Source of the DNA: Fulvivirga imtechensis AK7 | GTDB lineage: Bacteria; Bacteroidota; Bacteroidia; Cytophagales; Cyclobacteriaceae | Length of the DNA stretch: 47,914 bases | Assembly: GCF_000331535.1 (NCBI RefSeq) | Contig: NZ_AMZN01000071.1 | Span: 1 to 47,914 of the forward strand | Direction: 5' to 3' | Part shown: positions 18,050 through 36,154 of the stretch, piece after piece | How positions within the stretch are numbered: position 1 is the stretch's first letter | How the letters are laid out: each line of letters begins with the position of its first letter | Made by a program: the position numbers and the translations under genes | Notes under the pieces: generated by a model | What the model saw: the letters and a program-made list of their open reading frames with translations, nothing else | The model's database searches: none | What the model was told of the DNA's origin: nothing

Positions 18050-18189
18050 AGCTGGTCAGCTATACCAGTACCTACGACCACACCTGGTACGACTAACCTT
18101 ACTTTTAGCTTTTGCCAATTTTGTGTACCTTCATTAAACTATTTTTTTTCTCAGGTTTCAGATCTCAGATCTCTAATATTTTAACAAGG

Positions 18190-20043
18190 ATGTTCACGGC
18201 CAGGGTTTTAGGTATCTTTATAATTTTCTTTAGCCTCAGCATGCCATCGGTAGCACAGGTAATACATCTGCACAGTAAAGTGGCGGAGAAGATCATTCCG
18301 ATCAACGAATTGTTGGTTTTCGAAGACTCTCTCGACAGGGCGACTTTTGCAGAGGTAAGACGCTCGCCCAGGCTGTTTTCTTTGATGCCAGGTTTTAAAC
18401 CCAATGATTATAATCCGGAATCAGCTTATTGGGTGAAATTGACACTCCACATTCCTCAACCGGACGACCACCAGTGGCTGCTGGAGTTTTATGACCAAAC
18501 TATAGATCATATAGAAGCCTATGTGCCGCAGGATGATGGCACATATAAACGCATGGTAATGGGCGACATGTATAATTTCAACCAAAAGCCCTTCAAACAC
18601 AAAAACTTTGAGATACTACTAAGTTCAGAGTTTTCCGGGGTGAGAACATTCTATTTTAAAATAAAGTCCCATTCCTATGCTGATATCAGGATCGCTGTCA
18701 GAACTATTGATCGGTTTGTACACTATGCTCTTAAGGAGTACTTTTTGTACGGCATCTTCTATGGCATGATCGTAATTATCAGTTTGTACAATCTGCTGAT
18801 ATTCTCTGCTATACGTGAGGTTAAATACTTGTACTATACCTTTTATATCCTGAGTGTAGGTGTATACGCGATGTGTGTGGATGGTATTGCCTACCAGTTT
18901 TTATGGCCCGGGTGGCCAAAATGGAATCAGATCGCCCATGGCACCGCTCTTTTTTCATTGATATTCTGGGCAATGATCTTTGGGCAGCGGTTTCTTAACA
19001 CCAGAGTACGAGCACCCAGGCTCCATAAGATCATTGTTGGTGTTTTGATCCTCAGGTCAGCATGGTATGTTCATGTACTGCTGTTTGATAATCGACTTTT
19101 TGAGTGGAGAAATATAGAGATCATACCATTGTCGCTGATATTTTACGCTGGTATAGACGTATGGATAAGGGGGTATAAACCAGCGAGGTTTTTCGTAATG
19201 GCCTACGGAGTATTGTTCCTTGGATTTCTCATCAAGGCCTTACTTAACTTGTCAGTTATCCCATTTTTGATATTATCCTACTATAGCCTTCACATTTGCT
19301 TCTTATTGGAAATGCTGTTTCTGACATTTGCGTTGAGCGACCGGGTGCGGATATTAAAGGATAACCGTGACCGGGCGTTGAAGAGGATAATCATCCAGCA
19401 CCAGGAAAATGCTACGCTGAAAGATAAGGTCAACAAAGAGCTGGAAGATCTGGTAACGAGGCGTACAAAACAGTTGCAGGAGAAGAATTTGCTTCTGGAA
19501 GAAACTAACCAGAAGATGTTGGAGCAGGCCAAAGAGATCAACAAGATCAATTCTATGCTTGATCTCGACAATTGGAAGCTGAAGAACAACATCAAAGAAA
19601 TTTTGCAGGATCGTTTGGTCAATAAAAACCTGACCCTGGAGCAGTTCGAAAAGATTTTCCCCGATCCGATCAGTTGTTATCGATTTTTGGAGCGATTGAA
19701 ATGGGCAGGGGGGTATGAGTGTAGCAAGTGCGGTAATAATAAACACTCCACAGGGCATACAAAATTTTCCAGGCGCTGCTCCAAGTGTGGCTATGACGAG
19801 TCTGTCACCAGTAATACCGTGTTTCACCGCATAAAATTTCCAATAGAAAAGGCGTTTTACATCCTCTATCTCACCAACAACCGCCACAACCACTTCACTT
19901 TAGATGAGCTATCCGAAATGCTCGATCTCAGGAGAAACACCATCTGGACCTTTAAAAAGAAAATCGAAAGCCTCTATGACGGTCCGGAAAACAACCACAA
20001 GAGTATATTGATTAATGATCTTTTCTCTGCGCATCTAGCATAG
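18190..20043 (+). CDS. Seven-TM sensor (7TMR-DISM) fused to an IS1595-type transposase zinc ribbon
   Basis: A 617-residue product from the ATG at 18190, which gives a clean signal peptide ending PSVAQ. The frame is open to a TTG at 18112 but without a signal. Residues about 25-180 look like a 7TMR-DISMED2 periplasmic domain (SAYWVKLTL, FKIKS). About 183-387 hold seven hydrophobic segments. About 393-475 is a coiled coil. Then comes the N-terminal part of an IS1595-family transposase: FLERLKWAGGYECSKCG, cysteines 511/514 and 530/533, NTVFHRIKFPIEKAF, and a helix-turn-helix near 570-595. The DDE catalytic domain is absent. I infer a membrane-anchored DNA-binding regulator that senses a periplasmic ligand. 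The nearest target is the glycan locus beginning 418 bases downstream on the same strand. Alternatively the zinc ribbon mediates protein contact only. Confidence 0.82.
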   Translation: MFTARVLGIFIIFFSLSMPSVAQVIHLHSKVAEKIIPINELLVFEDSLDRATFAEVRRSPRLFSLMPGFKPNDYNPESAYWVKLTLHIPQPDDHQWLLEFYDQTIDHIEAYVPQDDGTYKRMVMGDMYNFNQKPFKHKNFEILLSSEFSGVRTFYFKIKSHSYADIRIAVRTIDRFVHYALKEYFLYGIFYGMIVIISLYNLLIFSAIREVKYLYYTFYILSVGVYAMCVDGIAYQFLWPGWPKWNQIAHGTALFSLIFWAMIFGQRFLNTRVRAPRLHKIIVGVLILRSAWYVHVLLFDNRLFEWRNIEIIPLSLIFYAGIDVWIRGYKPARFFVMAYGVLFLGFLIKALLNLSVIPFLILSYYSLHICFLLEMLFLTFALSDRVRILKDNRDRALKRIIIQHQENATLKDKVNKELEDLVTRRTKQLQEKNLLLEETNQKMLEQAKEINKINSMLDLDNWKLKNNIKEILQDRLVNKNLTLEQFEKIFPDPISCYRFLERLKWAGGYECSKCGNNKHSTGHTKFSRRCSKCGYDESVTSNTVFHRIKFPIEKAFYILYLTNNRHNHFTLDELSEMLDLRRNTIWTFKKKIESLYDGPENNHKSILINDLFSAHLA

Positions 20044-20461
20044 TGCGAGTTGCAAGCTGTTGGCATTAAGCTACAAGCATTCACAAGACCGAAGTCGGAA
20101 GCACGGATACTGCAAGCTTCAAGCAAAATATCAATCGTCAACCAGTAAACCCCAAACCCCAAACCCCAAACATCAAACATCAAACACCAAACAGATTAAC
20201 AAATAACGATTAACCATCAACGATTTCACAGATTCTGCTATTGATGTGCAAAATGAGATCGTTCCCACAACCAAAAACGTTCAAATCTTCATCTATCCTT
20301 GTTTTTAAAGCGCAATAACGAGCTCCTTTTCATACTATAAAAACCCCCTGATTTTCAAGACTATTGCTCTCATTGTTTGTTTTAATGTAAATGGAATCCT
20401 ACAATTATTTCACGTTTGATTAACCCAGCGTAAAAAACATTGAAACCCTTAAAAAAATCTT
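20044..20461. other. Leader region of the glycan locus
   Basis: No gene was found. The left part holds the CAAACNN heptamer array at 20146-20194 after GC-richer repeat-like text. The right 250 bases are AT-rich and should hold the SusC promoter and any regulator site; no operator could be identified with confidence. Confidence 0.4.
20146..20194. repeat. Heptamer array, unit CAAACNN
   Basis: Seven units in a row: TAAACCC, CAAACCC twice, CAAACAT twice, CAAACAC and CAAACAG. The same unit recurs at 36069-36096 and 44225-44259. Confidence 0.85.
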
Positions 20462-23400
20462 ATGAAAAAGTATTTACTGTTTATGTGTCTTTTCTTCGCC
20501 TCCGCAATGGCATTTGACGCAGCAGCTCAAATTGTGGTGCAGGGGCGGGTGACATCTTCGGATGATGGGGAGCCATTGCCCGGTGTGAATGTGTTAGTGG
20601 AAAACACTACCAAAGGAACAGTTACCGATGTAGATGGGAATTATTCCATTACACTTGATGGTGACGAAAATGTTCTTGTCTTTTCATTTATTGGTTTCGC
20701 CACGGAGCGCATTTCGGTGAGTGGGCGTAGTGTTATCGATGTATCATTGGCTAGTGATATTACTTCTTTGGATGAAGTGGTAGTCATTGGCTACGGTACG
20801 CTACAAGAAAGAGAACTGACCACTGCAATTACCACCCTGAAGACCGAGGAGATAACCAAAACACCCACCGGACAAGCCATGCAGGCATTGCAGGGAAAGG
20901 TGGCCGGTGTTCAGATTGTAAGCAACGGTGCGCCCGGAGCAGCGCCAACTGTTCGGGTCAGAGGGATCGGATCTTTCGAAGGTAATGCGGCTCCTCTTTA
21001 TGTAGTAGATGGTATGTTTTTCGACAATATCGATTTTCTGAATACCAACGACATCGCTACTATCTCCATATTAAAAGATGCATCAGCTTCTGCCATTTAT
21101 GGTATGAGAGCAGCCAATGGGGTAGTATTGATTGAGACTAAATCTGGCGCCTATGGGCAAGAGCCGGAAATTGTTTATGATGGATATGTAGGGATACAGG
21201 TTCCCCAGAATGTGATAAAAATGGCGAACTCCGAGCAATTTGTCAGGTACATCAATGAGGTAGGTGATCCTGCAGACCTGGCATTTGTGGATAATGCCTT
21301 TCAACGCTATGGAAGAAGCAGAGTAAACCCCAACGTGCCTGATGTCAACACCGACTGGTACGATGAGGTGATGGACCCTTCCACCATTCAAAACCATTCC
21401 CTTTCTTTCAATGGGGGCTCCGAGAGCACCAGGTACTCTATTGGCGGTAGCTATTTTGATCAGCAAGGGTTACTAAATGAAACCCGCAATGAGTTTAAAC
21501 GCCTTACATTCCGGGCTAAATTGGATACGGATGTTAAGAAATGGCTCACCGTGGGAGGTAATCTAAATGTTAGTATGGCTCGTCAGTATGTTGGTGAAAA
21601 TGCGGCCTGGTTTGATGCTTACTTTGCCGTACCCATCATGCCTGTGTATGATGAGCAGAATAGCAACGCTTCGCCTTTCCGGCTGGCTAATGCGCGACAA
21701 CTGGGCTATAGAAATCGTCAAAACCCCTTTTTTCCATTATTGTACAATGACAACCGTAATAACATAGGTAAAGTGCTCGGCAATTTCCATCTGGATGTAC
21801 ACCTTTTGGAGGATAAGCTATCTTTTAAAACAGTGTACAACTATAGCATGGAAGCCATATCGGCACGCAATGTAGATTTTAACTATTCTGACGGAATGGA
21901 GAATGTACAGTCTGCATTGGTAAGGGAAACGGTGACGTCATTTGATCAGGTATGGGATAATTATGCGACATACAGGGACAACTGGGGCGCACATAACCTG
22001 ACCTTGGTTGCAGGGTATTCTTTTAGAAGTGAATACAGAGAATTATTGTATGCAAGGGGTACAGAGATACAAGGGCTTGATAGAGACCAGGAGGAATTCT
22101 GGTACCTCTCGAGGGCAGCCAACATAAACATCAATGACATCAGAGATACTGATGGCAACACGTTGAATAGTCGTCTTTTTTACCAGTCAGTGTTCGGCAG
22201 GTTAGCGTACAATTACGATGGTCGATACTTGCTTTACAGCACATTTAGGAGAGATGGGAATAATAAATTCCAAACAAAATACGGCAACTTCGCCACTTTT
22301 GGTGCGGGTTGGGTGCTGTCTGAAGAGGCTTTCTTTGATGTCGGCTTTATAGATTTCCTGAAGTTCAGAGGAGGCTGGGGACAGTTGGGGAATGATGGTA
22401 TCAGACCTGCTGAAGGTAGTCCAACTTTTGATGAAGGCAGACTTACTGTTATCAACGGGGCACCTGTAACCGGCAGATTTCTGAATCCTGCTTTTGATCG
22501 TATAACGGCCTTTGAAAAAACAGAAGAAATAAACGTAGGTATTACAGCTAATTTACTGGCAAGCAGACTTTCTTTCGAGGCCGATTATTTCATCAGAGAT
22601 ACCAAAGATCTGGCTGTAAATATAATACTTCCCGGTTTTAGAGAGCCAGTGCGAAGAAGTGTAGGCGAAATAAGAAATACCGGCTTTGAGTTCTCCATCG
22701 ACTGGTCCGACCGGATATCAGATAAATGGGCATATTCAGTTGGAGGTAATTTAGCAACTCTGGAAAATGAGGTTAGAGGTTTAGGGGGAGCCAAAAGTCT
22801 TAATGCCGGTTCGGCAGAGTTCAGACAGATTTCGATTGTTGGAGAGCCTTTCGAAGCTTTTTATGGTTATGAACTGGTGGGTGTTTTCCAAAATGAGCAA
22901 CAGATAAGCAATAGTGGCTATACACAGGAATTTTTAGCTGAAAATAATCTGCAACCAGGGGATTTTTACTTCAAAGATCAAAACGGAGATGGTGTGATCG
23001 ATGATGAAGACAGGGTTATTTTAGGATCATACCTGCCCGATCTTACCTATGGATTTAATATAGCAGTTTCTTATGGCAATTTCGATCTCACTGCACACTT
23101 TCAGGGACAGGCTGGTAATAGCATTTTAAACAGAAAAAGAGGAGAGATCATTTTTACTAACGATACCAACCTGGATGCAGAACTGGCAGATAACCTGTGG
23201 CGTGGAGATGGCACCTCTAACAAATACCCATCCGCCGCAGGATTGAGAAAAGGATGGAACCAGAATATGAGCGAATATTTTGTCGAAAACGGCTCATATT
23301 TCAGGGTTCAGAACGTGCGTCTCTCCTACCTTTTTAAAGGCCAGATCTTAGGTTCTCAAATGCCTGAAACAAGAATAACTCTAACTGCTGAGCGACTGCT

Positions 23401-23509
23401 CACAGTGTTTGACTACAACGGGTTTAATCCTGAAGTAGCGGATGGTATCGACAGACAAGTGTACCCGATACCCGCGATCTACACAGTTGGGTTGAACATA
23501 AAACTTTAA
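20462..23509 (+). CDS. SusC/RagA-family TonB-linked outer-membrane transporter
   Basis: A 1015-residue protein. The signal peptide ends DAAAQ (about residue 23). It is followed by a carboxypeptidase-regulatory-like domain (VQGRVTSSDDGEPLPGVNV, about 25-110), the SusC signature DEVVVIGYGT, a plug (QALQGKVAGVQIVS, VRVRGIGS, LYVVDG) and a beta-barrel. With the SusD gene ten bases downstream it forms the outer-membrane import complex for oligosaccharides. The enzymes further along predict beta-1,2-glucan fragments as the cargo. First gene of the locus. Confidence 0.96.
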   Translation: MKKYLLFMCLFFASAMAFDAAAQIVVQGRVTSSDDGEPLPGVNVLVENTTKGTVTDVDGNYSITLDGDENVLVFSFIGFATERISVSGRSVIDVSLASDITSLDEVVVIGYGTLQERELTTAITTLKTEEITKTPTGQAMQALQGKVAGVQIVSNGAPGAAPTVRVRGIGSFEGNAAPLYVVDGMFFDNIDFLNTNDIATISILKDASASAIYGMRAANGVVLIETKSGAYGQEPEIVYDGYVGIQVPQNVIKMANSEQFVRYINEVGDPADLAFVDNAFQRYGRSRVNPNVPDVNTDWYDEVMDPSTIQNHSLSFNGGSESTRYSIGGSYFDQQGLLNETRNEFKRLTFRAKLDTDVKKWLTVGGNLNVSMARQYVGENAAWFDAYFAVPIMPVYDEQNSNASPFRLANARQLGYRNRQNPFFPLLYNDNRNNIGKVLGNFHLDVHLLEDKLSFKTVYNYSMEAISARNVDFNYSDGMENVQSALVRETVTSFDQVWDNYATYRDNWGAHNLTLVAGYSFRSEYRELLYARGTEIQGLDRDQEEFWYLSRAANININDIRDTDGNTLNSRLFYQSVFGRLAYNYDGRYLLYSTFRRDGNNKFQTKYGNFATFGAGWVLSEEAFFDVGFIDFLKFRGGWGQLGNDGIRPAEGSPTFDEGRLTVINGAPVTGRFLNPAFDRITAFEKTEEINVGITANLLASRLSFEADYFIRDTKDLAVNIILPGFREPVRRSVGEIRNTGFEFSIDWSDRISDKWAYSVGGNLATLENEVRGLGGAKSLNAGSAEFRQISIVGEPFEAFYGYELVGVFQNEQQISNSGYTQEFLAENNLQPGDFYFKDQNGDGVIDDEDRVILGSYLPDLTYGFNIAVSYGNFDLTAHFQGQAGNSILNRKRGEIIFTNDTNLDAELADNLWRGDGTSNKYPSAAGLRKGWNQNMSEYFVENGSYFRVQNVRLSYLFKGQILGSQMPETRITLTAERLLTVFDYNGFNPEVADGIDRQVYPIPAIYTVGLNIKL

Positions 23510-23519
23510 GAATACAACT

Positions 23520-25049
23520 ATGATACGAATAAAATACTGGAAATACACATTTGCATGGGTGCTGTCACTGCTGGTGATAATGTCATGCGATGTACTCGAT
23601 GAGCCTCTTCAGAATGTAGAGCTTGAAGAAGAAACCGATTACACTAAATCGGAGGACATGGTCTTGCTTCTATATGGGGCCTACGGTGAATTCAACGATT
23701 TGCAATGGGAGACTTTCCCAACCATATCAGTAAGGGGTGATGATGTAAATGCAGCCGGAGATCAGGAGCCTTTGACGCAAACCGATGAATTTAAATACGA
23801 CCGGAATTTCTGGATGTACAATTCTACCTGGCTGAACCTCTACAACGATATTTTCCTTTTTAACGGACTGATGGAAAGTATCAACTTCTATAAAGAATCA
23901 GGGGCAAATGCGGCAGAAGCAGATCAGTATATTGCTGAAATCAAGGTAATGCGTGCTTTTGAGCTGCTTCAAATAGCACGGTTGTGGGGAGATATCCTGG
24001 TGCCGGCCACTTCCGTACCTGCGGAGCTCGAAGACACTCCTTTGTCTACCTTTGAAGAAGCTATGCAGCACATTTCTGACCAGATGGATGAAGCTATATC
24101 TGATCTTCCCCCTGTAAGGCCCAACCAGCGTACTGATATACAAGGAGGTGTTACCAGATACACAGCATATGCAGTAAAAGCTATGGCCAATCTGGAGCTT
24201 AAAAACTATCAGAAAGTAGCTGATGCAACGGGTGAGATCATCGGTGCAGGGTTGTTTCATTTGGAGCCTGATTTCTATCAACTATTCAAAATACCCGGAA
24301 AACTAAGCGATGAAAGCCTGATGGAACTTCAATATTCTGATTTTGGTACCAGTTCAGGTACTTCAACTAGTTATCTCTGGGAGTTTTTTGGCCCGGGAGC
24401 TTACACACCAGCAGTAGCAGGTTCTGGCGGAGGTTGGGGTTTTTGGGAACCGACAGTAAAGTACATAAAATTCATGCTGGATCGTGGTGAGGAAGAGCGG
24501 CTGGTCACCAGTGTGATATTTACCCCAGATGGTATCGCTGAGATACAATCGGATCCGGAGTATGCTCCTTTGCCAGCTTTTATTTCAACTACATCTCCTG
24601 ATGGTGATCAGTTTGAAAACCATACGCGCTATGATTTCCTAAGTGGGAAGCACTATCTACCGACAGTTCAACTAACGCCAGGAAGAACAAAATGGGGAGA
24701 GAATAATAACTTCAGGGTGATTCGATACGCTGAAGTTTTACTGATGCATGCAGAAGCGCTGGTAAATGGAGCCTCCAGCGCTGTGATGAGTGCCGATGAT
24801 GCCGTGAACGAAGTGAGAGGGCGTGCGGGACTTGGCGCTATATCAGGAGTTACGCTTGATAATGTGCTCGATGAGAAATTTGCTGAATTTGCGATGGAAT
24901 GGGGTATCCGCTTCTATGATTTGGTGCGCCATGGCAGAACCGCTGAATTGAATCATGATGGTATAATCTACGAGGAAGGAAAGGATCGCTTTCTTCCTTA
25001 TCCTTTAGAACAGGTAGATGCTCTACCACAACTTCAAGATGGAAATTAA
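23520..25049 (+). CDS. SusD/RagB-family glycan-binding lipoprotein
   Basis: A 509-residue surface lipoprotein with the lipobox at VIMSC (Cys23). The SusD fold is supported by the N-terminal GAYGEFNDLQWETFP region, TPR-like helices (AEIKVMRAFELLQIARLWGD, YTAYAVKAMANLEL) and the C-terminal FRVIRYAEVLLMHAEALV and FAMEWGIRFYDLVRHGR motifs. It caps the SusC barrel and binds the sugar. The stop codon is followed after one base by the start of the next gene, so translation is tightly coupled. Confidence 0.96.
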   Translation: MIRIKYWKYTFAWVLSLLVIMSCDVLDEPLQNVELEEETDYTKSEDMVLLLYGAYGEFNDLQWETFPTISVRGDDVNAAGDQEPLTQTDEFKYDRNFWMYNSTWLNLYNDIFLFNGLMESINFYKESGANAAEADQYIAEIKVMRAFELLQIARLWGDILVPATSVPAELEDTPLSTFEEAMQHISDQMDEAISDLPPVRPNQRTDIQGGVTRYTAYAVKAMANLELKNYQKVADATGEIIGAGLFHLEPDFYQLFKIPGKLSDESLMELQYSDFGTSSGTSTSYLWEFFGPGAYTPAVAGSGGGWGFWEPTVKYIKFMLDRGEEERLVTSVIFTPDGIAEIQSDPEYAPLPAFISTTSPDGDQFENHTRYDFLSGKHYLPTVQLTPGRTKWGENNNFRVIRYAEVLLMHAEALVNGASSAVMSADDAVNEVRGRAGLGAISGVTLDNVLDEKFAEFAMEWGIRFYDLVRHGRTAELNHDGIIYEEGKDRFLPYPLEQVDALPQLQDGN

Positions 25050-25050
25050 A

Positions 25051-26832
25051 ATGACGATGATGAAAAAATTAACGCTATTAATAATAACTGTCCTGTCATT
25101 CTCTCTTGGATGTGACGATGGATACATAGATGATATTTCTGCTGTAGATCCGGGGGCGGATAAATCGGCTCCCGGAGTAACAATCAACTACCCGAATGAA
25201 GGTACTGCAATAAAGGTATATGACGAAGTTACCTCAATAAATATCAAATTCGAAGTGACGGATGATATTGAAATTAAAACAATTAAGCTCGCATTGAACG
25301 GTACAGAACTCACAACCTATAGTGAGTTTAAGGATTTCCGTAAAGTAATAGACGAATACCAGTATGAGAACCTGACCAACGGGAACCATACCCTTACAGT
25401 CACAGCTACAGACATTGAAGGTAAAAGCACTTCCAAATCAGTAAACTTTTCAAAAGAACCACCTTATGTTGCTAAATATGATGGAGAGATCTTTTACATG
25501 CCTTTTGATGGTGAAAATGTTGAGTTGGTAAGCGTGACTTTTCCAACAGTTGTGGGCACTCCGGGGTTTGCTGATGAAGGCAAAATGGGTGGTGATGCCT
25601 ATGCAGGAGCTGTGAATTCCTATCTTACCTTTCCTATGGAAGGATTAACAGGTACTGAGTTTAGTGCGGTATTCTGGATGAAAGTTAATTCAGCTCCGGA
25701 TCGTGCGGGTATTTTAGTGGCGGGGCCTGAAGATGAGGCAAATCCTACAGCACAAAATGACCGAACGGCAGGTTTTCGTTTTTTTAGGGAAAATGCCGCT
25801 GGAGCGCAACGCTTTAAACTTAACGTAGGAACAGGAGATAGCGACTCGTGGTTTGACGGTGGTAGCGCTGCCGATGTGGATCCGGATACTGATGAGTGGG
25901 TACACTTTGCATTTACAATATCAGGAGGCCATTCGGCCGTATACATTAATGGAGAAGTAGTGAGCCAGGGTAGCTTTCCAGGTGTGGACTGGTCCGGGGT
26001 AGATGTATTATCCATAATGTCCGGGGCACCACATTTTACCGAATGGGGACACTTGTCGGACGAAAGCTATCTTGATGAATTGCGCTTGTTCAATAAAGAA
26101 TTATCACAAACAGAGATCCAAAATATCATTGCTGATGAAGGTGGAAGTGTGGGTGGAGGGCCTGAATTCGGAGAGATATTCTATATGCCATTTGATGGTA
26201 ACTATACCGAGTCTGTCTCGGGCACAAGTGCAACAGAAGTAGGAACGCCAGGATTTGCAGGGGAAAGTTTACGGGGAAGTAATGCCTATGCAGGAGCTAC
26301 AGATTCATATCTGACCTTTCCTTCAGGTGGTCTTGAAAATAGTGAATTTAGCGCCTCTTTCTGGTATAAATTAAATAATGATCCAAATCGTGCGGGTATT
26401 TTGGTCATTGGGCCCCCTGATCCTGACAATCCTGACGCTCAGAATGTGAGAACAAGCGGGTTTAGGTTTTTCAGGGAAGATGCTGGAGGAGACCAGAGAT
26501 TTAAGTTAAATGTAGGAACAGGAGCCGGTGATGCATGGTTTGATGGTGGGGATGCGGCTGATCTTGACCCTGCAGTAGCTACTGATTGGGTGCATATGGC
26601 TTTTACTATCTCAGGTACCGAAGCGGTAATCTACATCAACGGTGAAATCGTATCGCAGGGAACATTTGATGGAGTCGACTGGACAGATTGCGACATCCTT
26701 TCCATAGGATCAGGCGCTCCCCGGTTCACAGGATGGGACCATCGGTCAGACCTCAGTTATATAGACGAACTAAGGATCTTTGATAAAGTGCTTACTCAGG
26801 CAGAGGTTCAGGATATAATTGATGCAAAATAG
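25051..26832 (+). CDS. Two-LamG surface glycan-binding lipoprotein
   Basis: The ATG at 25051 gives 593 residues with a lipobox ending SLGC (Cys21) followed by acidic DDGYIDD. Residues about 40-140 form an Ig-like domain (GVTINYPNEGTAIKVYD, NGNHTLTVTATD). Two concanavalin A/LamG-like domains follow from DNA positions 25483 and 26170. They are clear duplicates: GEIFYMPFDG, DAYAGAVNSYLTFP/NAYAGATDSYLTFP and FKLNVGTG occur in both. Its place directly after SusD is where the surface glycan-binding protein (SusE/F-like) lies in such loci, though this protein is not SusE-like. Upstream in-frame ATGs at 25018 and 25039 would overlap SusD. Confidence 0.85.
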   Translation: MTMMKKLTLLIITVLSFSLGCDDGYIDDISAVDPGADKSAPGVTINYPNEGTAIKVYDEVTSINIKFEVTDDIEIKTIKLALNGTELTTYSEFKDFRKVIDEYQYENLTNGNHTLTVTATDIEGKSTSKSVNFSKEPPYVAKYDGEIFYMPFDGENVELVSVTFPTVVGTPGFADEGKMGGDAYAGAVNSYLTFPMEGLTGTEFSAVFWMKVNSAPDRAGILVAGPEDEANPTAQNDRTAGFRFFRENAAGAQRFKLNVGTGDSDSWFDGGSAADVDPDTDEWVHFAFTISGGHSAVYINGEVVSQGSFPGVDWSGVDVLSIMSGAPHFTEWGHLSDESYLDELRLFNKELSQTEIQNIIADEGGSVGGGPEFGEIFYMPFDGNYTESVSGTSATEVGTPGFAGESLRGSNAYAGATDSYLTFPSGGLENSEFSASFWYKLNNDPNRAGILVIGPPDPDNPDAQNVRTSGFRFFREDAGGDQRFKLNVGTGAGDAWFDGGDAADLDPAVATDWVHMAFTISGTEAVIYINGEIVSQGTFDGVDWTDCDILSIGSGAPRFTGWDHRSDLSYIDELRIFDKVLTQAEVQDIIDAK

Positions 26833-26931: not shown

Positions 26932-28893
26932 ATGTCTTTGAAAACTTTTTTCACATTTATACTTCTGATTATAGGGCTCAACGCTTGTAGCGATGATGAA
27001 GATCAGCACACTTCTTTTGAGCTACAGCGTGCTTCTATAGGCGGCATCGAACTCAGTCTGTCTGGAGCTATAGCCGAAAAAGCTCCTTTAGACAGGTCGA
27101 TAGCGCTAACTTTTTCAGGCGTGGTTCAGGAGGCTTCTATGGCCAATGGCATTTCTGTAAAAGCCAATGATCAAAACATATCGATAGAGCTAACCCTCTC
27201 TTCTGGCAATACAGTGGTCATTCGGCCATCAACAATACTAGCAAGCAATACCGTTTATACCATTGAGGTATCTGATCAGTTGAGGAGCGAGGGAGGAGCC
27301 GCAGCAACTCCGACATCTGTCAGCTTCAAAACCAGGCCTGATGACCTTGAATTGCTCTCAGTTTTCATTGAGGGTGAAGAAGTTGTTCAGACACTGAGGC
27401 TTAGCAATGTGCCTGTTGATCTATCTATGACCTTCAACTTTTCATCGGCCATTGATAAAGCTTCTTTTGAGGAAGCATTGACCATCACCGGATTTTCCGC
27501 TCTTAATTTCACCCCGTCCAACGGAGATAAGACCATGATCATCAGCAGTACAACTGCTTTGCAGCATCTGAAAAAATACTATTTACAGTTGTCAGATGCG
27601 CTTTTAGGGCAGGACGGGGAGCCGTTTACCGGCTATGAATTGAATTTTTACACAGCCGTGGATTCTACTCCGAAATTTCCTGAGATTCCTGATGAAGAGC
27701 TTCTAACGAAGGTTCAGGAACAAACCTTCAAATATTTCTGGGACTTCGCACATCCGGTAAGTGGCATGACACGAGAGAGAAACACTTCAGGAGACGTGGT
27801 GACTACTGGGGGCTCTGGCTTTGGAGTTATGGCTATTGTTGTGGGCATAGAAAGGGGATTCATCACCAGGCAGCAAGGGGTAGACAGGCTTGAAACCATT
27901 GTCAATTTTCTGACCTCTGCTGATCGCTTTCATGGTGCATGGCCGCACTGGATGGATGGGAATACAGGTGATGTTATCCCGTTTAGTCAAAAAGACAATG
28001 GAGGTGATCTGGTGGAGACTGCATTGATGATACAAGGACTGCTGACCGTTAGGGAGTACCTGGATGATGCCGACCAACAGGAAGCGGCTATTCAGGAGAA
28101 GATCACGCAGCTTTGGGAAGAAGTGGATTGGGATTGGTACACCCGTGGCGGCGAGGATGTATTGTACTGGCACTGGTCGCCAGACTATGGCTGGGAGATG
28201 AATCACCAGGTAAGAGGATGGAATGAGGCCCTAATAGTTTACGTGTTGGCAGCTTCGTCACCTACTCATGCCATAAATGCTGATGTTTATCACAATGGCT
28301 GGGCTGAAGATGGTGATATAAAAAATGGTAACGAGTACTACGGCATTACCTTGCCGCTTGGAAACGGAAAGGGTGGTCCCTTATTCTTTGCACATTATTC
28401 ATTTCTTGGACTTGACCCACGCAATCTGGAAGATCAGTATTCCAATTACTGGACTCAAAATGTTAACCATACTTTGATCAATAGGGCCTACACTGCAGCC
28501 AACCCTTTAAATTATGTCGGCTATGGCATTTATAGCTGGGGCCTGACTGCCAGTGACAACCATCAGGGCTATGCTGCACATTCACCGGATAATGACCTGG
28601 GTGTGATCACGCCAACAGCGGCTCTATCATCGATGCCATATACACCCGAATATTCAATGGATGCCTTGCATCACTTCTATTATTTGCTAGGAGATAAGTT
28701 ATGGGGACAATACGGGTTTTATGATGCCTTCAATTTTACAGAACAGTGGGTGGCTGACTCTTATCTGGCTATAGATCAGGGGCCTGTTATAATCATGATA
28801 GAAAACTACCGTACAGGGCTTCTTTGGGACCTTTTTATGAGCAATACGGAAATTGCAACCGGATTGAACAAACTAAATTTTACATCATACTAA
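26932..28893 (+). CDS. GH144-type beta-1,2-glucanase, surface lipoprotein
   Basis: A 653-residue enzyme. The lipobox LNAC (Cys19) is followed by SDDED, an acidic export signal pointing to the cell surface. Two Big_5-like Ig domains occupy about 35-240. The catalytic (alpha/alpha)6 domain (PF10091 'glucoamylase', CAZy GH144) begins about 255 with QTFKYFWDFAHPVSG. It shows GGSGFGVMAIVVGIERGFITR in two parts, DRFHGAWPHWMDG, GGDLVETALMIQGLL, YWHWSPDYGW and NDLGVITPTAALSS. Characterised GH144 enzymes are endo-beta-1,2-glucanases or sophorose-releasing exo enzymes. I infer the surface endo step here. It is paralogous to the next gene. Confidence 0.9.
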   Translation: MSLKTFFTFILLIIGLNACSDDEDQHTSFELQRASIGGIELSLSGAIAEKAPLDRSIALTFSGVVQEASMANGISVKANDQNISIELTLSSGNTVVIRPSTILASNTVYTIEVSDQLRSEGGAAATPTSVSFKTRPDDLELLSVFIEGEEVVQTLRLSNVPVDLSMTFNFSSAIDKASFEEALTITGFSALNFTPSNGDKTMIISSTTALQHLKKYYLQLSDALLGQDGEPFTGYELNFYTAVDSTPKFPEIPDEELLTKVQEQTFKYFWDFAHPVSGMTRERNTSGDVVTTGGSGFGVMAIVVGIERGFITRQQGVDRLETIVNFLTSADRFHGAWPHWMDGNTGDVIPFSQKDNGGDLVETALMIQGLLTVREYLDDADQQEAAIQEKITQLWEEVDWDWYTRGGEDVLYWHWSPDYGWEMNHQVRGWNEALIVYVLAASSPTHAINADVYHNGWAEDGDIKNGNEYYGITLPLGNGKGGPLFFAHYSFLGLDPRNLEDQYSNYWTQNVNHTLINRAYTAANPLNYVGYGIYSWGLTASDNHQGYAAHSPDNDLGVITPTAALSSMPYTPEYSMDALHHFYYLLGDKLWGQYGFYDAFNFTEQWVADSYLAIDQGPVIIMIENYRTGLLWDLFMSNTEIATGLNKLNFTSY

Positions 28894-28906: not shown

Positions 28907-30256
28907 ATGACTAGACACTTTTACATATTTATAGTTTTAATCCTGATCATCGCCTCCTGTGGGCAAAAGCCGCAGACTTCTGAAGAATTGCATAACGGAG
29001 CAAAAAATACCATTTCAGATGACTCTCTGATGACTCTTGTTCAGTACCAAACCTTCCAGTATTTCTGGGACAATGCCGAGCCGGTATCCGGACTTGGCAG
29101 GGAAAGGACACATATGGATGGTATTTACCCTCAGGATGACAAAAACGTGGTGACTACCGGAGGTTCTGGTTTTGGCTTAATGGCTATTTTGGTCGGAATC
29201 GAACGAGGTTTCATCACCAGAGAGGAAGGACTGGAGCGGTTTCAGAAAATAGTAAGCTATCTGCATACCGCTGACCGGTTTCATGGCGCCTGGCCTCATT
29301 GGTTGGAAGGCGAAACAGGCAAGGTAAAGCCTTTTAGCCCTAAAGATGATGGAGGAGACCTCGTGGAAACAGCCTTTCTTGTTCAGGGCTTACTGACGGT
29401 GAGGGAGTATTTTAAAAACGGCAGCGAACAGGAAAAAGCGCTGGCGGCAAAAATTGATGAGCTATGGCGCGGGGTTGAGTGGGATTGGTATACAAAAGGA
29501 GGTGAAAACGTGCTGTACTGGCATTGGTCTCCGAATAACGGCTGGGATATGAACTTCCCGGTAGGTGGCTACAACGAATGCCTGATCATGTATGTGCTGG
29601 CAGCAGCTTCTCCTACTTATCCCATCGAGCCGGAGGTATATCATCAGGGTTGGGCCCGTAACGATTCCATAGCCATGGATACCACATACCTGGGCTATGA
29701 AACAGTGCTCGACCACTATGAACACAACAATGATCCTGTTGGACCGCTGTTCTGGGCGCACTATTCGTATTTAGGGCTGGATCCACGAAACCTTAAAGAC
29801 AAATATGCAGACTATTGGAAACTGAATCAGAACCATGCACTGATCCACTATGAGTACTGTGTGCGCAACCCAAAAAATTATGAAGGGTATGGTAAGAGTT
29901 GTTGGGGGCTCACCTCAAGCTATTCACCCACCGGTTATGCCGGGCACCAACCCAGCAACGACCTTGGTGTCATATCACCAACGGCAGCCTTGTCATCATT
30001 TCCCTATACACCTGATCAAAGCATGGATTTTCTGCGATTTCTATACACAGATGCTGATTCTCTGGTAGGAGAATACGGACCCTATGATGCTTTCAGCCTC
30101 GAAAAGGACTGGTATCTGCCCCGCTACCTGGCCATAGACCAGGGGCCTATTCCGGTGATGATCGAAAACCATCGCAGCGGACTATTGTGGGAGCTGTTCA
30201 TGCAGGCCCCGGAGGTAAAAGAAGGATTAACGAAACTGGGATTTTCTTATGAGTAA
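28907..30256 (+). CDS. GH144-type beta-1,2-glucanase, probably periplasmic
   Basis: A 449-residue paralogue of the preceding enzyme without the Ig domains. The lipobox ASC (Cys18) is followed by GQKPQ, not an acidic signal, so it is probably retained facing the periplasm. The GH144 pattern is intact: QTFQYFWDNAEPVSG, GGSGFGLMAILVGIERGF, DRFHGAWPHWLEG, GGDLVETAFLVQGLL, YWHWSPNNGW, NDLGVISPTAALSS. A TTG at 28895 could also start it. The stop overlaps the start of the next gene by eight bases, so translation is coupled. By analogy with other loci it should shorten imported oligosaccharides. Confidence 0.9.
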   Translation: MTRHFYIFIVLILIIASCGQKPQTSEELHNGAKNTISDDSLMTLVQYQTFQYFWDNAEPVSGLGRERTHMDGIYPQDDKNVVTTGGSGFGLMAILVGIERGFITREEGLERFQKIVSYLHTADRFHGAWPHWLEGETGKVKPFSPKDDGGDLVETAFLVQGLLTVREYFKNGSEQEKALAAKIDELWRGVEWDWYTKGGENVLYWHWSPNNGWDMNFPVGGYNECLIMYVLAAASPTYPIEPEVYHQGWARNDSIAMDTTYLGYETVLDHYEHNNDPVGPLFWAHYSYLGLDPRNLKDKYADYWKLNQNHALIHYEYCVRNPKNYEGYGKSCWGLTSSYSPTGYAGHQPSNDLGVISPTAALSSFPYTPDQSMDFLRFLYTDADSLVGEYGPYDAFSLEKDWYLPRYLAIDQGPIPVMIENHRSGLLWELFMQAPEVKEGLTKLGFSYE

Positions 30257-31028
30257 GATGCTAGCTATATCGACAGTAATGTTTTTCATGTTAAGCACAG
30301 GCGGTATGACACAAGATAGAAGTGCATTTGAGAGCAAACACTTTATTAATGATGGAGATACTTTGCTTTACCGCATCCTCTGGCCTGAAAATTTTGACAA
30401 GTCAAAGAAATACCCGCTGGTAATATTTCTTCATGGCGCAGGAGAGCGTGGCAATGACAACAAAAAACAACTCGTACACGGAAGTTCGCTATTCATGGAA
30501 AAGCGTTCCAACCACCCTGCAATAGTGATCTTTCCGCAATGCCCAAAAGAAGACTACTGGTCAAGTATAAAATCGAGGTACAACAATGGAGAAAGAGAAT
30601 TCTATTTTGAAGAGGATAGCGAGCCGACTAATGCATTAAAGAATGTCTCAGATCTGCTGGATGCTCTGCTGCATGAGACTTTTGTAAACACTCGTCAGGT
30701 ATACATTGCAGGCCTTTCTATGGGCGGAATGGGTACCTACGAATTGGTTGGACTCAGACCGGAGACTTTTGCGGCTGCTTTTGCTATCTGTGGAGCCGGA
30801 AATCCTAAAATGGCAAAAAAATACGCTGAAAAGGTTCCCTTTTGGATATTCCATGGTGCCAAGGATGATGTTGTACCCCCAAGGGGCTCCGAGGTAATGG
30901 TCGAGGCTTTGAAGAAAGAAGGTGGAGATGTGAAATATACACTTTATCCAAATGCTAATCATAATAGCTGGGACAGCGCTTTTGCAGAGCCTGAGCTGCT
31001 ACCCTGGCTTTTTTCAAACAAGAAGTAA
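30249..31028 (+). CDS. Secreted alpha/beta hydrolase, esterase-like
   Basis: A 259-residue protein with a signal peptide ending GGMTQ (about residue 20). The alpha/beta-hydrolase core has HGAGERG for the oxyanion region, Ser157 in GLSMGG, Asp206/207 in GAKDDVVPP and His238 in PNANHNSW. The closest groups are PHB-depolymerase/feruloyl-esterase-like and phospholipase-like enzymes. It overlaps the previous gene and is followed after eight bases by the GH3 gene, so it belongs to the operon. I infer an ester-removing role, for example on succinylated glucan, but no substrate is shown by sequence. It could also be a peptidase. Confidence 0.82.
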   Translation: MSKMLAISTVMFFMLSTGGMTQDRSAFESKHFINDGDTLLYRILWPENFDKSKKYPLVIFLHGAGERGNDNKKQLVHGSSLFMEKRSNHPAIVIFPQCPKEDYWSSIKSRYNNGEREFYFEEDSEPTNALKNVSDLLDALLHETFVNTRQVYIAGLSMGGMGTYELVGLRPETFAAAFAICGAGNPKMAKKYAEKVPFWIFHGAKDDVVPPRGSEVMVEALKKEGGDVKYTLYPNANHNSWDSAFAEPELLPWLFSNKK

Positions 31029-31036
31029 TATAAAAA

Positions 31037-33262
31037 ATGATAAAAAGATTTTTACCGATACTGATTTTAGGATACAGCACACTCACTTGTGCGCAGGAAA
31101 GGAATGGAAAAACAGTCGATTCCCACATAGATTCACTGTTGAGTGTGATGACACTTGAAGAAAAGATTGGGCAGATGACTCTTTATACCAGCGGCTGGGA
31201 TGTGACAGGGCCTACACTTAATGAAAATTATAAAGAGGACCTGAAGGCCGGTAAAGTAGGAGCGCTGTTCAATGCGCATACAGTAAAATACAACAGCGAC
31301 CTTCAGCGCATGGCAGTGGAAGAGACTCGTCTGGGCATCCCCTTACTCTTTGGGTATGATGTAATCCACGGGCACAGGACCATCTTTCCATTACCGTTGG
31401 CGGAAGCCTCCTCCTGGAACCTCGATCTGATCAAAGAAACGGCCCGTCTGTCGGCTAAAGAAGCGGCTGCCTCGGGCCTGAACTGGACATTTAATCCTAT
31501 GGTCGACATAGCACGTGATCCGCGCTGGGGCCGGATTGCGGAAGGCTCAGGGGAAGACACTTACCTGGGTAGCCTTATCGCCAAAGCAAAAGTAGAAGGC
31601 TACCAGGGGGATGACCTAAGCGACCCGTTTACCGTATTGGCTTGTGTAAAGCACTTTGCTGCCTACGGAGCTTCTCAGGCAGGCCGTGATTACCATACGG
31701 TGGATATGTCAGACCGTGTGCTCAGGGAGACATACCTGCCACCCTACAAAGCGGCTATAGATGCAGGAGCTGCCACCGTAATGACTTCATTCAACGAATT
31801 GCATGGGGTTCCTGCTTCGGGAAGCAGGTACCTGATGACTGAAATTTTAAGAGAAGAATGGAGGTTTAAGGGGTTTGTGGTAACAGATTATACCTCAATC
31901 AACGAAATGGTGCCCCATGGAGTAGTGGCCAATGAAAAAGAGGCCGCAGACCTTGCGCTGAATGCCGGTGTCGATATGGATATGCAAGGGGGTGTTTATA
32001 ATGACCACCTGGCTACGTTGGTGAACGAGGGTAAGGTTTCTGAAAAGCAGGTCGATGAGGCAGTAAGGAGAATACTGGAAATGAAGTGGAGGCTTGGATT
32101 GTTCAAAGACCCATACCGTTACCTCGATGAAAAAAGAGAGCTGCAGGTGCTGTTTTCGAAGGAGCTGATGGATCATGCGCTGGTTTCGGCACGTGAATCT
32201 ATTGTACTATTGAAAAACGAACCTTACAACAACAAAAAGCTGCTCCCAATAGCCAATGATGTCAAATCTATAGCTCTTATTGGTCCTCTGGGCGATAATC
32301 AGATAGACATGCTGGGCACATGGCATGCCTCCGGTGATGCCAATAAGGTAGTTACTGTACTTCAGGGACTGAAAGAAGCGTTCCCAAAGGCAAAGATCAC
32401 TTATACTAAAGGAGCGGATTTCATGGGAAGCGACAAAAGTGGTTTCGAAGAAGCAACAAAAAACGCCAGGGCAGCAGACCTGGTAATTATGGCTGTTGGT
32501 GAAAACCATCAGCAAAGTGGAGAGGCAGCCAGCAGGTCAGGGCTGGATCTCCCGGGAGTGCAGCAGGAGTTGGTTGAGGCAATATATCAGACGGGAAAGC
32601 CGATTGTCGCCCTGGTAATGGCCGGTCGTCCGCTGACCATTGGGTGGATGGATGAAAATATTCCTGCTATTGTGAATACATGGCACTTGGGTACCATGGC
32701 CGGGAAGGCCATCGCTGAGGTGTTGGCAGGGAAGTATAATCCTTCAGGAAAGCTGACCATCACCTTCCCTCGCAATGTAGGTCAGATACCGATCTACTAC
32801 AGTATGAAAAACACCGGACGCCCTTTCGATGCTGATTCAAAATACACCAGTAAGTATTTGGATGTATCTAACGAACCATTATATCCTTTCGGCTACGGTC
32901 TTAGCTACACTACTTTTGAATACGGGGAGCCGAAGCTCAGTAAAATCGAAATAAAGGAGCATGAAAATCTGACCATAGAGGTGATGGTGAAGAATACTGG
33001 GGAGTACGAAGGGCAGGAAGTGGTACAGCTTTACGTTAGGGACCTGGTGGGAAGCGTTACAAGGCCTGTGAAAGAGCTAAAAGGTTTTGAGAAAATAAGT
33101 TTGAAGCCCGGAGAAAGCAAGGTGGTGACGTTTACGATAAATTCGGATAATCTGAAATTTTACACTAGAGATATGTCATATAGAGTTGAACCCGGTGAAT
33201 TTTTGATCACAATAGGGCCAAACTCGGCAGAAGGAAAGACAGCTCAGTTTACATTAAAATAA
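31037..33262 (+). CDS. bglX: GH3 beta-glucosidase (BglX type), lipoprotein
   Basis: A 741-residue family-3 glycosidase in the BglX group. Signal sequence ends TLTC (Cys18), a possible lipobox. Domain order is an N-terminal TIM-barrel with nucleophile Asp284 (VVTDYTSINEM), then the alpha/beta sandwich (LGTWHASGDANKVVTVLQGL). The Fn3-like C-terminal domain contains VKNTGEYEGQEVVQLYVRD and PGEF. Expected reaction is removal of glucose from the non-reducing end of beta-glucosides. Homologous GH3 enzymes next to GH144 enzymes in Bacteroides act on beta-1,2-gluco-oligosaccharides. Last gene of the close-spaced operon, eight bases after the hydrolase. Confidence 0.92.
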   Translation: MIKRFLPILILGYSTLTCAQERNGKTVDSHIDSLLSVMTLEEKIGQMTLYTSGWDVTGPTLNENYKEDLKAGKVGALFNAHTVKYNSDLQRMAVEETRLGIPLLFGYDVIHGHRTIFPLPLAEASSWNLDLIKETARLSAKEAAASGLNWTFNPMVDIARDPRWGRIAEGSGEDTYLGSLIAKAKVEGYQGDDLSDPFTVLACVKHFAAYGASQAGRDYHTVDMSDRVLRETYLPPYKAAIDAGAATVMTSFNELHGVPASGSRYLMTEILREEWRFKGFVVTDYTSINEMVPHGVVANEKEAADLALNAGVDMDMQGGVYNDHLATLVNEGKVSEKQVDEAVRRILEMKWRLGLFKDPYRYLDEKRELQVLFSKELMDHALVSARESIVLLKNEPYNNKKLLPIANDVKSIALIGPLGDNQIDMLGTWHASGDANKVVTVLQGLKEAFPKAKITYTKGADFMGSDKSGFEEATKNARAADLVIMAVGENHQQSGEAASRSGLDLPGVQQELVEAIYQTGKPIVALVMAGRPLTIGWMDENIPAIVNTWHLGTMAGKAIAEVLAGKYNPSGKLTITFPRNVGQIPIYYSMKNTGRPFDADSKYTSKYLDVSNEPLYPFGYGLSYTTFEYGEPKLSKIEIKEHENLTIEVMVKNTGEYEGQEVVQLYVRDLVGSVTRPVKELKGFEKISLKPGESKVVTFTINSDNLKFYTRDMSYRVEPGEFLITIGPNSAEGKTAQFTLK

Positions 33263-35017: not shown

Positions 35018-35116
35018 TAGGAAAAGATCTTTTAAAACCCAGTTTATTTGACCAAAAGAGATTAGTAGCTGGCGCAAGTGTTAAGCTATAGCGTCACTTG
35101 TACCTTAACCGAAATT

Positions 35117-35132
35117 CCAGTCTTCAGACTGG
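35117..35132. repeat. Small perfect hairpin
   Basis: CCAGTCT and AGACTGG with a two-base TC centre in the gap between sulfatase and FGE genes. Too short and lacking a T tract for a confident terminator call. Confidence 0.45.
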
Positions 35133-35200: not shown

Positions 35201-36154
35201 TTGCTAATAAGACAAGTTTTGCTTTTGCTTATAGCAGGAGTGCTACTAACCTGCAATCCCAATCCCACAGCCCCTGAAGGGATGGTATATTTTGCCGGAG
35301 GTGATATAACCATCGGCTCAGAGCATGGTTTAACAAACGAAGCACCAACCTTTGAAGCAGAAATAGCCCCCTTTTTTATTGATAAACACCCTGTCACGGT
35401 AGCGCAGTTCAGAGCGTTTGTACAGACGACCGGATACAAAACCGATGCTGAAAAATTTGGAAACTCTGCCCTTTTCAACTATAAAAAGCTTATATACGAG
35501 TTAGTGGATAGTGTCACCTGGCAGCAGCCACTTGGCCCCAATGGTGCTCCGGCTAAAGATAACCATCCCATAACCCATGTTAGCTGGAATGATGCCATGG
35601 CCTATGCTTCATGGGCTGGCAAGAGGCTGCCACACGAATATGAATGGGAATTTGCCGCCCGAAATGGTAAAAACACCAATGACAAATACAGTTGGGGAAA
35701 CAGCCTCACCGATAACAATGGTGTATTTAAAGCTAATGTATGGCAAGGACATTTTCCCGATACCAACACAGTAGCTGACGACTTTGCCCATACCTCACCC
35801 GTTGGTGCCTTCGGAATAACATCATGCGGTATGTCTGACATGGGTGGAAATGTATGGGAATGGTGTAGTAATATCTTCGAGTTGTATCCGGGGAATCATT
35901 ATCCTTACCAAAAAGATCCAAATGTAAAAGTGATCAGAGGCGGCTCCTTTATGTGTGATTCACTGGTCTGTCATGGCTACCGCGTTTCAGCCCGCCAGTT
36001 TACCTCCCGCGAAACCTCCAACTTCCATATGGGCTTCCGCTGTGCCATGGATGTTGACAGGCGAACATCAAACCCCAAACATCAAACACCAAACCAAAAC
36101 ACAACAATAAAAACCACATATAAATCGTACCTTAGTAATGACAAAAGATTTTAA
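35201..36154 (+). CDS. Formylglycine-generating enzyme (SUMF1), lipoprotein
   Basis: A 317-residue FGE-sulfatase-fold protein. The TTG at 35201 is the only start giving a lipoprotein signal (VLLTC, Cys18); the first ATG at 35282 falls inside the domain. Catalytic cysteines Cys252 and Cys257 in GGSFMCDSLVCHGYR match the oxygen-dependent FGE pair (Cys336/Cys341 in the human enzyme). GKRLPHEYEWEFAAR and GGNVWEWCSN are typical. It should activate the neighbouring sulfatase. The C-terminus after GFRCAMDVD runs through a CAAACNN heptamer array into an extra tail of about 35 residues. A lipoprotein FGE implies action outside the cytoplasm. Confidence 0.9.
   Translation: MLIRQVLLLLIAGVLLTCNPNPTAPEGMVYFAGGDITIGSEHGLTNEAPTFEAEIAPFFIDKHPVTVAQFRAFVQTTGYKTDAEKFGNSALFNYKKLIYELVDSVTWQQPLGPNGAPAKDNHPITHVSWNDAMAYASWAGKRLPHEYEWEFAARNGKNTNDKYSWGNSLTDNNGVFKANVWQGHFPDTNTVADDFAHTSPVGAFGITSCGMSDMGGNVWEWCSNIFELYPGNHYPYQKDPNVKVIRGGSFMCDSLVCHGYRVSARQFTSRETSNFHMGFRCAMDVDRRTSNPKHQTPNQNTTIKTTYKSYLSNDKRF
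36069..36096. repeat. Heptamer array (CAAACNN) inside the FGE 3' end
   Basis: Four units, CAAACCC, CAAACAT, CAAACAC, CAAACCA, lie within the reading frame and are translated as the tail near SNPKHQTPNQ. Same unit as at 20146-20194 and 44225-44259. Confidence 0.8.

Follow-up and report, generated by a model that had tools for sequence, protein, structure and literature searches.

What could be the role of a protein that begins as a periplasmic sensor, ends as the DNA-binding part of a transposase and is encoded directly upstream of a glycan-utilization operon? The question is raised by a 47,914-nucleotide (nt) stretch of the Fulvivirga imtechensis AK7 genome (contig NZ_AMZN01000071.1), hereafter the window, in which a first-pass annotation had read one gene as a seven-transmembrane (7TM) sensor fused to the zinc ribbon and helix-turn-helix (HTH) of an IS1595 transposase, and had proposed a membrane-tethered one-component regulator of the adjoining locus. 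Our results indicate that such fusions very likely are membrane-tethered one-component transcription regulators of glycan-utilization loci, built from an IS1595 transposase and presumed to bind DNA, and that the locus regulated in the window is most likely the operon directly downstream, encoding SusC, SusD, beta-1,2-glucanases and a glycoside hydrolase family 3 (GH3) protein. This reading follows from the architecture and conservation of the protein, its linkage to SusC/SusD genes, its co-occurrence with the glucanase where the two are unlinked, a conserved element upstream of SusC, a second type of sensor bearing the same domain, and the exchange of the fusion for a sigma/anti-sigma pair in a relative. 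On anatomy the annotation is right, and on present evidence it is also right on the kind of function.

A sensor joined to a transposase-type DNA-binding domain

The open reading frame (ORF; 18112..20043) opens at a TTG, and its ATG at 18190 gives a protein of 617 amino acids (aa), in which the DISM periplasmic and membrane domains and the IS1595-type zinc ribbon and HTH stand on one chain with a long modelled helix between them (Table 1). The match of the C-terminal domain to a transposase zinc ribbon, a point set beforehand as a test of the annotation, was found with Zn_ribbon_IS1595 (PF12760) at residues 495-535 (E 4.6e-7; 30.1 bits against a Pfam cut-off of 25.4). Because residues 549-601 match no more than positions 3-56 of the 215-position NCBIfam IS1595 transposase profile (E 0.001; 19 bits, cut-off 75), the HTH region is recognizable and the DDE part absent. 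The chain stops 16 residues past position 601, and Pfam found in the 617-aa protein neither the DDE catalytic domain (PF12762), which the annotation had likewise reported missing, nor any histidine kinase, receiver, AraC or FecR domain or Sigma70 regions. As the N-terminal domain is periplasmic and seven transmembrane (TM) helices intervene, the C-terminus would be cytoplasmic.

Conservation was read from two alignments of fusions, A1 (27 sequences) and A3 (79 sequences), and from a 27-row profile of the DNA-binding domain (A2). Cysteines 511, 514, 530 and 533 are invariant in 27/27 and 79/79 sequences, respectively, as are R425 and T426 within the long helix; the residue preceding the latter pair is E in 54 of the 79 fusions and R in the window protein. 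Beyond the column of residue 601 the fusions end after 9-29 residues in A1 and 14-42 in A3. An AlphaFold model based on 79 sequences (mean predicted local distance difference test score (pLDDT) 84.5; predicted template modelling score (pTM) 0.64) places helices at residues 366-478, 552-563, 571-578 and 582-596. Compared by Foldseek, the model returned human WLS at rank 1 and the RetS periplasmic domain (3jyb) at rank 2 (TMt 0.65).

Two aspects of the model weigh against a functional regulator: residues 462-475 of the linker helix are modelled at pLDDT < 50, and the model of the DNA-binding domain has no Foldseek match in the PDB at E 0.001 or better, the weak rows being HTH pieces (LiaR, DosR) and zinc ribbons (TFIIB, ribosomal). 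In a PDB sequence search, the domain has no match below E 0.028 and the whole protein none at E 0.01. Such an absence of structural kin would suit a zinc ribbon-HTH that has lost DNA binding and become a dimerization or protein-interaction module, with the receptor signalling by other means, yet the four cysteines are invariant throughout the 79 fusions, the HTH positions are conserved, and an extracytoplasmic function (ECF) sigma/FecR pair precedes the same operon in a relative (G015); we regard this loss of binding as improbable.

The fusion is widespread. Some match to the protein occurs in 45 of 58 genomes (its own and those of relatives), and full-length fusions range from 78% identity within the genus to about 30% in other families. 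In the order, 145 of 390 genomes match A2 at 1e-15, with frames of 590-720 aa for most among the matches listed, and one genome (G532) has eight of ten domain matches in frames at least 615 aa long. Within the class, matches at 1e-20 occur in 31 of 395 genomes; outside the order, seven genomes (G876, G930, G956, G1069, G1103, G307, G194) have frames of 623-663 aa, while the frames of the remaining matches (136-337 aa) are of transposase size or shorter. A sample of the phylum gave matches at 1e-8 in 53 of 395 genomes, and many of these likewise lie in the shorter frames. Within its own genome the full protein matches once, and the zinc ribbon has one further weak match (E 0.05) in a 44-aa frame.

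This distribution decides the question of domestication in the annotation's favour. The idea that a transposon fragment landed in a sensor gene recently and by chance, leaving a pseudogene or a local oddity, has to its credit that IS1595 transposases are present in related genomes, one of them (L036:4028-4939 in G005; DDE domain E 5e-27) lying some 4 kb upstream of the fusion. It is refuted by open, conserved fusion homologues, the most divergent about 30% identical, that occur across many genera of the order and in the seven sampled genomes of the class beyond it, and the chance of its being correct is practically nil; the same recurrence rules out a fusion unique to this genome. Nor do the 418 bases 3' of the gene hold a recognizable transposase remnant, as had been annotated, the best tblastn match from four transposase queries being 22 aa at E 0.09.

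The same IS1595 zinc ribbon domain also follows Reg_prop repeats and Y_Y_Y in two proteins, L180 (997 aa) and L181 (1068 aa), neither of which has a kinase or AraC domain at E 0.001; L181 is encoded directly upstream of SusC and SusD. In a FastTree phylogeny of 115 domains (93 similarity-thinned fusions, the two propeller-type proteins and 20 proteins under 400 aa; midpoint rooted, support values unread), the sensor-linked domains cluster together with one 137-aa stand-alone protein (L281) and with the two propeller-type proteins nested inside, and the neighbouring branch holds L270, which has a DDE domain, and L262-L269. The tree, which carries no support test, suggests that the sensor-linked domain arose once, from an IS1595 transposase. 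We consider it reasonably probable that the fusions are a further, widespread class of regulators of glycan loci in Bacteroidota, in which the DNA-binding half of IS1595 was domesticated once, joined to 7TMR-DISM, later transferred onto Reg_prop/Y_Y_Y, and multiplied to control different glycan loci.

Several smaller proteins of this family were also seen. The 137-aa protein (L281:1194-1607, the same as L293) is a zinc ribbon-HTH alone, with neither sensor nor DDE domain. Nine IS1595-like genes are among those listed for G217, and all eight examined (L262-L269, 304-332 aa) lack the usual VDE catalytic motif; L262 matches the DDE model at E 2e-4, below the cut-off, and these genes are possibly another, independent domestication.

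Linkage to glycan loci and co-occurrence with the glucanase

The main set of loci consists of the best 80 of 289 confirmed related stretches; these loci are related to one another, and some recur in the other sets. Neighbours were mapped from ORFs called by our own scripts, with hidden Markov models built from the window's proteins. In 67 of the 80 loci the fusion is followed immediately, on the same strand, by SusC, and in 72 SusC lies within two genes; in many of them the order fusion, SusC, SusD, X, glucanase, then a glucanase or GH3, recurs. The eight loci with no SusC within two genes are L090, L091, L092, L165 (Fulvivirga), L112 (glucanase next), L126 (contig end), L161 and L163. Around 20 7TMR-DISM genes that are not fusions, SusC was next downstream in none and within two genes in one, and a SusC-SusD pair lay near none; at 20 fixed positions in four genomes, the corresponding counts for SusC were two and two. 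Recurrence of the fusion in other genera, often beside SusC/SusD loci, a second point set beforehand as a test of the annotation, was found.

The linkage extends beyond close relatives. Forty further regions of the order were taken, 12 from the window's family and 28 from outside it, and 38 held a 7TM fusion: SusC was next downstream in 18 of the 38 and within two genes in 20. Outside the window's family the counts were 10/26 and 11/26; for the former, comparison with the two controls gives p 0.002 and 0.04. Among the seven loci from outside the order (L285-L291), SusC is next downstream in L286 and L290 and three genes downstream in L285; L287-L289 adjoin a very large gene, which in L287 carries a GH81 domain. 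The 106 neighbours within two genes of 33 fusions with no adjoining SusC include GH3 (9), type IX secretion system tails (8), GH10 (4), short-chain dehydrogenases (4), Chalcone_3 (4), GH9 (3), laccase-type (3) and Gfo/Idh/MocA (3) proteins, sulfatase (2), and carbohydrate-binding modules CBM6 (2) and CBM35 (2); this tally lists 25 of 103 families, excludes genes of >1100 aa, of <130 aa or cut by an end, and has no background rate behind its counts. Since divergent relatives adjoin other SusC/SusD loci or carbohydrate-active enzyme (CAZyme) genes, with neither recognizable in some cases, the class is wider than the annotated role as regulator of this one locus.

In G507, a 236-aa protein (L292:9401-10111) combines the domain with about one TM helix and adjoins a 7TMR-DISM-like gene, with a GH18/GH19 chitinase gene close by; the fusion may here be split in two.

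Linkage by itself could mean a mere neighbour, a gene that moves together with the locus and has its regulatory target elsewhere. Related lineages share their gene order, so that many of the linked loci are not independent, and SusC is absent within two genes from 18 of the 38 further loci and from 18 of 27 in the first relatives' set (L033-L059; present in 9/27), all of which weighs against a regulatory tie. The neighbour explanation is nevertheless highly improbable: presence and absence of fusion and glucanase agree genus-wide although seven genomes hold the two apart, and fusions outside the family adjoin SusC (10/26) or CAZyme genes such as the GH3, GH10 and GH9 genes tallied above, again with no background rate.

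For the genus, 14 genomes besides the window's own were compared, with glucanase orthologues taken at E 1e-30 and fusion orthologues at 65% identity or more. The two genes agree in 14/14: nine genomes hold both (G001, G003, G004, G005, G006, G009, G012, G013, G014) and five neither (G002, G007, G008, G010, G011), giving a Fisher p of 5e-4, uncorrected for kinship. In seven of the nine (G001, G003, G005, G006, G009, G012, G014) the glucanase operon stands apart, with no fusion beside it. Across 35 genomes of the family, with fusions taken at 40% identity or more, 12 hold both, one the fusion only, four the glucanase only and 18 neither (p 4e-5). Counter-examples are G015, G018 (a fragment), G026 and G029, with a glucanase and no fusion, and G030, with the reverse; moreover, the family p rises to 0.007 once distant fusions of G024, G032, G034 and G035 count as present. 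In G015, an ECF sigma factor and FecR are encoded directly upstream of the same SusC-SusD-glucanase operon (L259:2470-4509). No clear regulator was found among the scanned neighbours of the glucanase locus in G026 and G029.

In three unlinked Fulvivirga loci (L035, L036, L037), a divergent 7TMR-DISM gene stands back to back with the fusion; that of L036 encodes a histidine kinase, which might act as a partner or as a competitor.

A candidate operator upstream of SusC

Our own expectation-maximization motif search of 86 unique fusion-to-SusC intergenic regions recovered a 20-nt element, M1 (TGTTTTTAAAGCGCAATAAC in the window), in 78 of them with a posterior over 0.5. Seventy-six of these lie on the + strand, and the position is mostly 135-240 nt before the SusC start codon. 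The matrix was trained on 80 of the 86 regions; the held-out window scores 21.9 and the five other held-out regions 22.2, 13.5, 17.2, 17.1 and 4.3, so that 5/6 reach 13.5 or more. All seven unlinked glucanase loci have a match to M1 on the + strand (18.5, 24.1, 19.7, 19.4, 19.4, 9.8 and 11.8 bits), whereas the best + strand scores at three fusion-less glucanase loci are 0.6, 0.6 and -0.5 (6.8, 13.2 and 8.0 on the - strand). Among 13 other SusC upstream regions, two rows of which are one locus, 12 score 9.5 or below; the exception is L207 (16.7), with a fusion four genes away. A score of 10 or more on either strand was found in 11 of 325 control upstream regions, in 7% of shuffles and in 82.5% of the training set. 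Conservation anchored on M1 drops to 0.5 bit or less beyond 18-20 nt (81 of 93 sequences used).

In 22 genomes, the 18-mer TGTTTTTWAAGCGCAAWA of M1 has six exact matches, all upstream of this SusC (G000, G001, G003, G004, G005, G006), a count that shows specificity and not independent discovery, since the pattern was drawn from sites already seen. Two copies of M1, with one and two mismatches, lie upstream of SusC in G014, and G001 has a second copy 24 bp away.

M1 is, by correlation, the candidate site of the fusion protein, an assignment that we judge somewhat likelier to be right than wrong. Several results tell against it. With a second matrix, trained without the 40 further loci of the order, M1 reaches 10 in 9/10 fusion-linked glucanase loci (L164 on the other strand) versus 2/15 fusion-linked loci with no glucanase gene (L184 and L193, within 350 nt, at 10 bits or more), so that the association of M1 with the glucanase locus is firm and that with the fusion itself weaker. 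L189 has a 14.5-bit match further up than 350 nt, the propeller-type L181 scores 5.9, and the 13.2-bit match on the other strand noted above belongs to the fusion-less L259 of G015. A palindrome, M2 (GCAAWCGWTTGC), is also enriched upstream of SusC: it occurs with <=2 mismatches in 52/86 linked loci, with <=1 in 7/7 unlinked loci, against 13/325 random upstream regions, and it is seen in many loci, for example L252-L254. M2 is presumably of the kind of palindrome associated with LacI regulators, and because it is enriched too, another regulator may act at the locus.

The protein might, then, regulate the locus by another route, through a different site (such as M2) or by modulating another regulator, with M1 belonging to a glucanase-locus factor or to a promoter. 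This alternative, which overlaps with the favoured explanation and disputes one step of it only, draws on the glucanase dependence of M1, on the retention of M2 at the same loci and on the correlative nature of the assignment. The GH3 loci L184 and L193, in which a matrix that had not been trained on them finds M1 on the + strand and in which M2 is absent, speak against it, as do the + strand scores, which stay at 0.6 or less in 3/3 fusion-less glucanase loci and do not reach 7 in 12 of the 13 other SusC upstream regions; divergent paralogues, moreover, may well use other sites. We hold it to be possible but rather unlikely.

Taking M1 as the site, a scheme can be outlined. DISMED2, called a predicted carbohydrate sensor in one source (PMC8846402), would respond to a signal in the periplasm, the simplest candidate being an oligosaccharide set free from the polymer. 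To judge by fold and signature, the 7TM bundle and the S-helix-like helix, probably in a dimer, would relay the change across the membrane, and the IS1595-derived zinc ribbon and HTH would bind DNA upstream of SusC, most likely at M1. The DNA-bound domain might then act on RNA polymerase, activation being the more likely outcome than repression.

Other roles for M1 were considered and set aside. Autoregulation is not supported, M1 reaching 10 bits or more upstream of the fusion gene itself, in both orientations, in 7/76 cases. For a regulon beyond one locus, the 18-mer with <=2 mismatches occurs 93 times in the 22 genomes versus 39 for the reversed pattern; because the matches fall in genomes with and without the fusion, no wider regulon is claimed. 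A derivation of M1 from transposon terminal repeats is not supported either: inverted repeats around transposase-size genes at 20 loci, several of them cut by contig edges or with weak repeats, are unlike M1.

The window's locus and known systems

Both glucanase homologues of the window (Table 1) match the endo-beta-1,2-glucanase 5gzh in the PDB, which points to beta-1,2-glucan as the substrate. Their family, PF10091, we take to correspond to GH144. The latter is a beta-1,2-glucanase family according to PMC12102758. The annotated absence of hybrid two-component system (HTCS), sigma/anti-sigma, AraC and LacI regulators holds for the 21 of 32 window ORFs scanned with Pfam, where none was found besides the fusion.

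Table 1. Features of the fusion gene, its product and the adjoining glycan locus, in window positions
Feature	Position	Strand	Basis
Membrane sensor/IS1595-type DNA-binding protein gene	18190..20043	+	ORF call, Pfam, NCBIfam; conserved in relatives
Putative N-terminal signal peptide, residues 1-23	18190..18258	+	Read from sequence; helix 2-16 in model
7TMR-DISMED2 periplasmic domain, residues 42-170	18313..18699	+	Pfam E 3.8e-25, over cut-off
7TMR-DISM_7TM, residues 183-385	18736..19344	+	Pfam E 4.1e-43, over cut-off
Long cytoplasmic helix, S-helix-like, residues 386-478	19345..19623	+	Model; R425-T426 invariant
IS1595 zinc ribbon (CxxC-CxxC), residues 495-535	19672..19794	+	Pfam
HTH of IS1595 type, residues 552-601	19843..19992	+	NCBIfam match, model
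Conserved element M1, TGTTTTTAAAGCGCAATAAC, candidate operator	20300..20319	+	162 nt upstream of SusC start; motif search
SusC-type TonB-dependent receptor; presumed target operon starts here	20462..23509	+	Pfam
SusD family protein	23520..25049	+	Pfam
Laminin_G_3/Big_7 protein	25018..26832	+	Pfam
Endo-beta-1,2-glucanase homologue (PF10091)	26932..28893	+	Pfam; PDB 5gzh, E 3.3e-164
Endo-beta-1,2-glucanase homologue (PF10091)	28907..30256	+	Pfam; PDB 5gzh, E 5.1e-188
Esterase/alpha-beta hydrolase	30249..31028	+	Pfam
GH3 protein, beta-glucosidase homologue	31037..33262	+	Pfam, further match
Sulfatase	33503..35017	+	Pfam
FGE-sulfatase domain protein (sulfatase-modifying factor type)	35282..36154	+	Pfam

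The sulfatase and FGE genes (33503-36154) end the locus and hint that the substrate may be sulfated or carry other substituents, as a substituted glucan would. The adjoining ORF (36158-37201) encodes a GDPD-family protein, the start of which may be miscalled, since its called N-terminus has odd repeats (PMVRVPT twice, then a histidine-rich stretch).

If our reading is true, the fusions are a new regulator class for glycan foraging in Bacteroidota and a bacterial case in which the DNA-binding domain of a transposase was captured as the output of a membrane receptor, with the receptor carrying its own DNA-binding domain and having a predicted 20-bp site; the fusion may also help to name the substrates of adjoining loci. 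The annotation had supposed the class to be undescribed. That part stands in so far as titles and abstract openings of the literature surveyed in part (few subscription papers, no bioRxiv preprints) hold no description of an IS1595-derived domain joined to a sensor. The supposition is weakened in that 7TMR-DISM with a different DNA-binding domain, that of the ChiS family, is already on record (PMC8092284).

Three types of Bacteroidetes regulator have been proposed according to PMC3878776, namely SusR-like, HTCS and ECF sigma, and PMC10766802 names HTCS, ECF sigma factors and catabolite repression. SusR, described in PMC3878776 as membrane-bound, with its sensor in the periplasm and its DNA-binding domain in the cytoplasm, is a close parallel: like the SusR-like proteins of Bacteroides, the fusion is a membrane one-component protein with a C-terminal DNA-binding domain and linkage to SusC/SusD, a likeness of architecture and linkage only. 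Compared by description, the two differ in that the DNA-binding domain of SusR resembles no known one whereas that of the fusion is of IS1595 type, and in that the SusR motifs are direct repeats with a spacing of 67 or 77 bp whereas M1 is modelled as a single site (with two copies, 24 bp from each other, in G001 and G014). SusE/SusF-type loci were found in 2 of 198 genomes, with no certain SusR; the Y_Y_Y and GerE protein at that of G237 (L282/L283), uncertain in its identity as SusR, has no IS1595-type domain below E 0.4.

ChiS is likewise a glycan sensor that binds DNA itself, and 7TMR-DISM is among the domains found with the ChiS-family domain (PMC8092284, Fig. 5 legend). By the same source, ChiS is a proteobacterial hybrid kinase whose DNA-binding domain is a cryptic HTH variant lacking homology to known HTH domains, whereas the fusion has an IS1595 zinc ribbon and HTH and no kinase. 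HTCS regulators share the Reg_prop/Y_Y_Y sensor with the sister architecture of L180 and L181, and differ in that no kinase, receiver or AraC domain was found in the fusion or in these two proteins. The ECF sigma/FecR anti-sigma system is set apart by its Sigma70 regions and FecR domain, and such a pair takes the place of the fusion in G015. With 7TMR-DISM receptors of the RetS type the fusion has in common the DISMED2 and 7TM domains and a fold match to the RetS periplasmic domain; its output is a transposase-derived DNA-binding domain, in contrast to the kinase of the 7TMR-DISM neighbour in L036. S-helix proteins carry an ERT signature in the coiled coil between sensor and output (signature compared with PMC1592074); the fusions show an invariant R-T there, preceded by R in the window protein. 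Finally, the IS1595 (ISXO2-like) transposases have the same zinc ribbon and HTH at their N-terminus, with 45% identity over 114 aa to the DDE-containing transposase of L270; the fusion differs from them in having no DDE catalytic domain and in being joined to a sensor.

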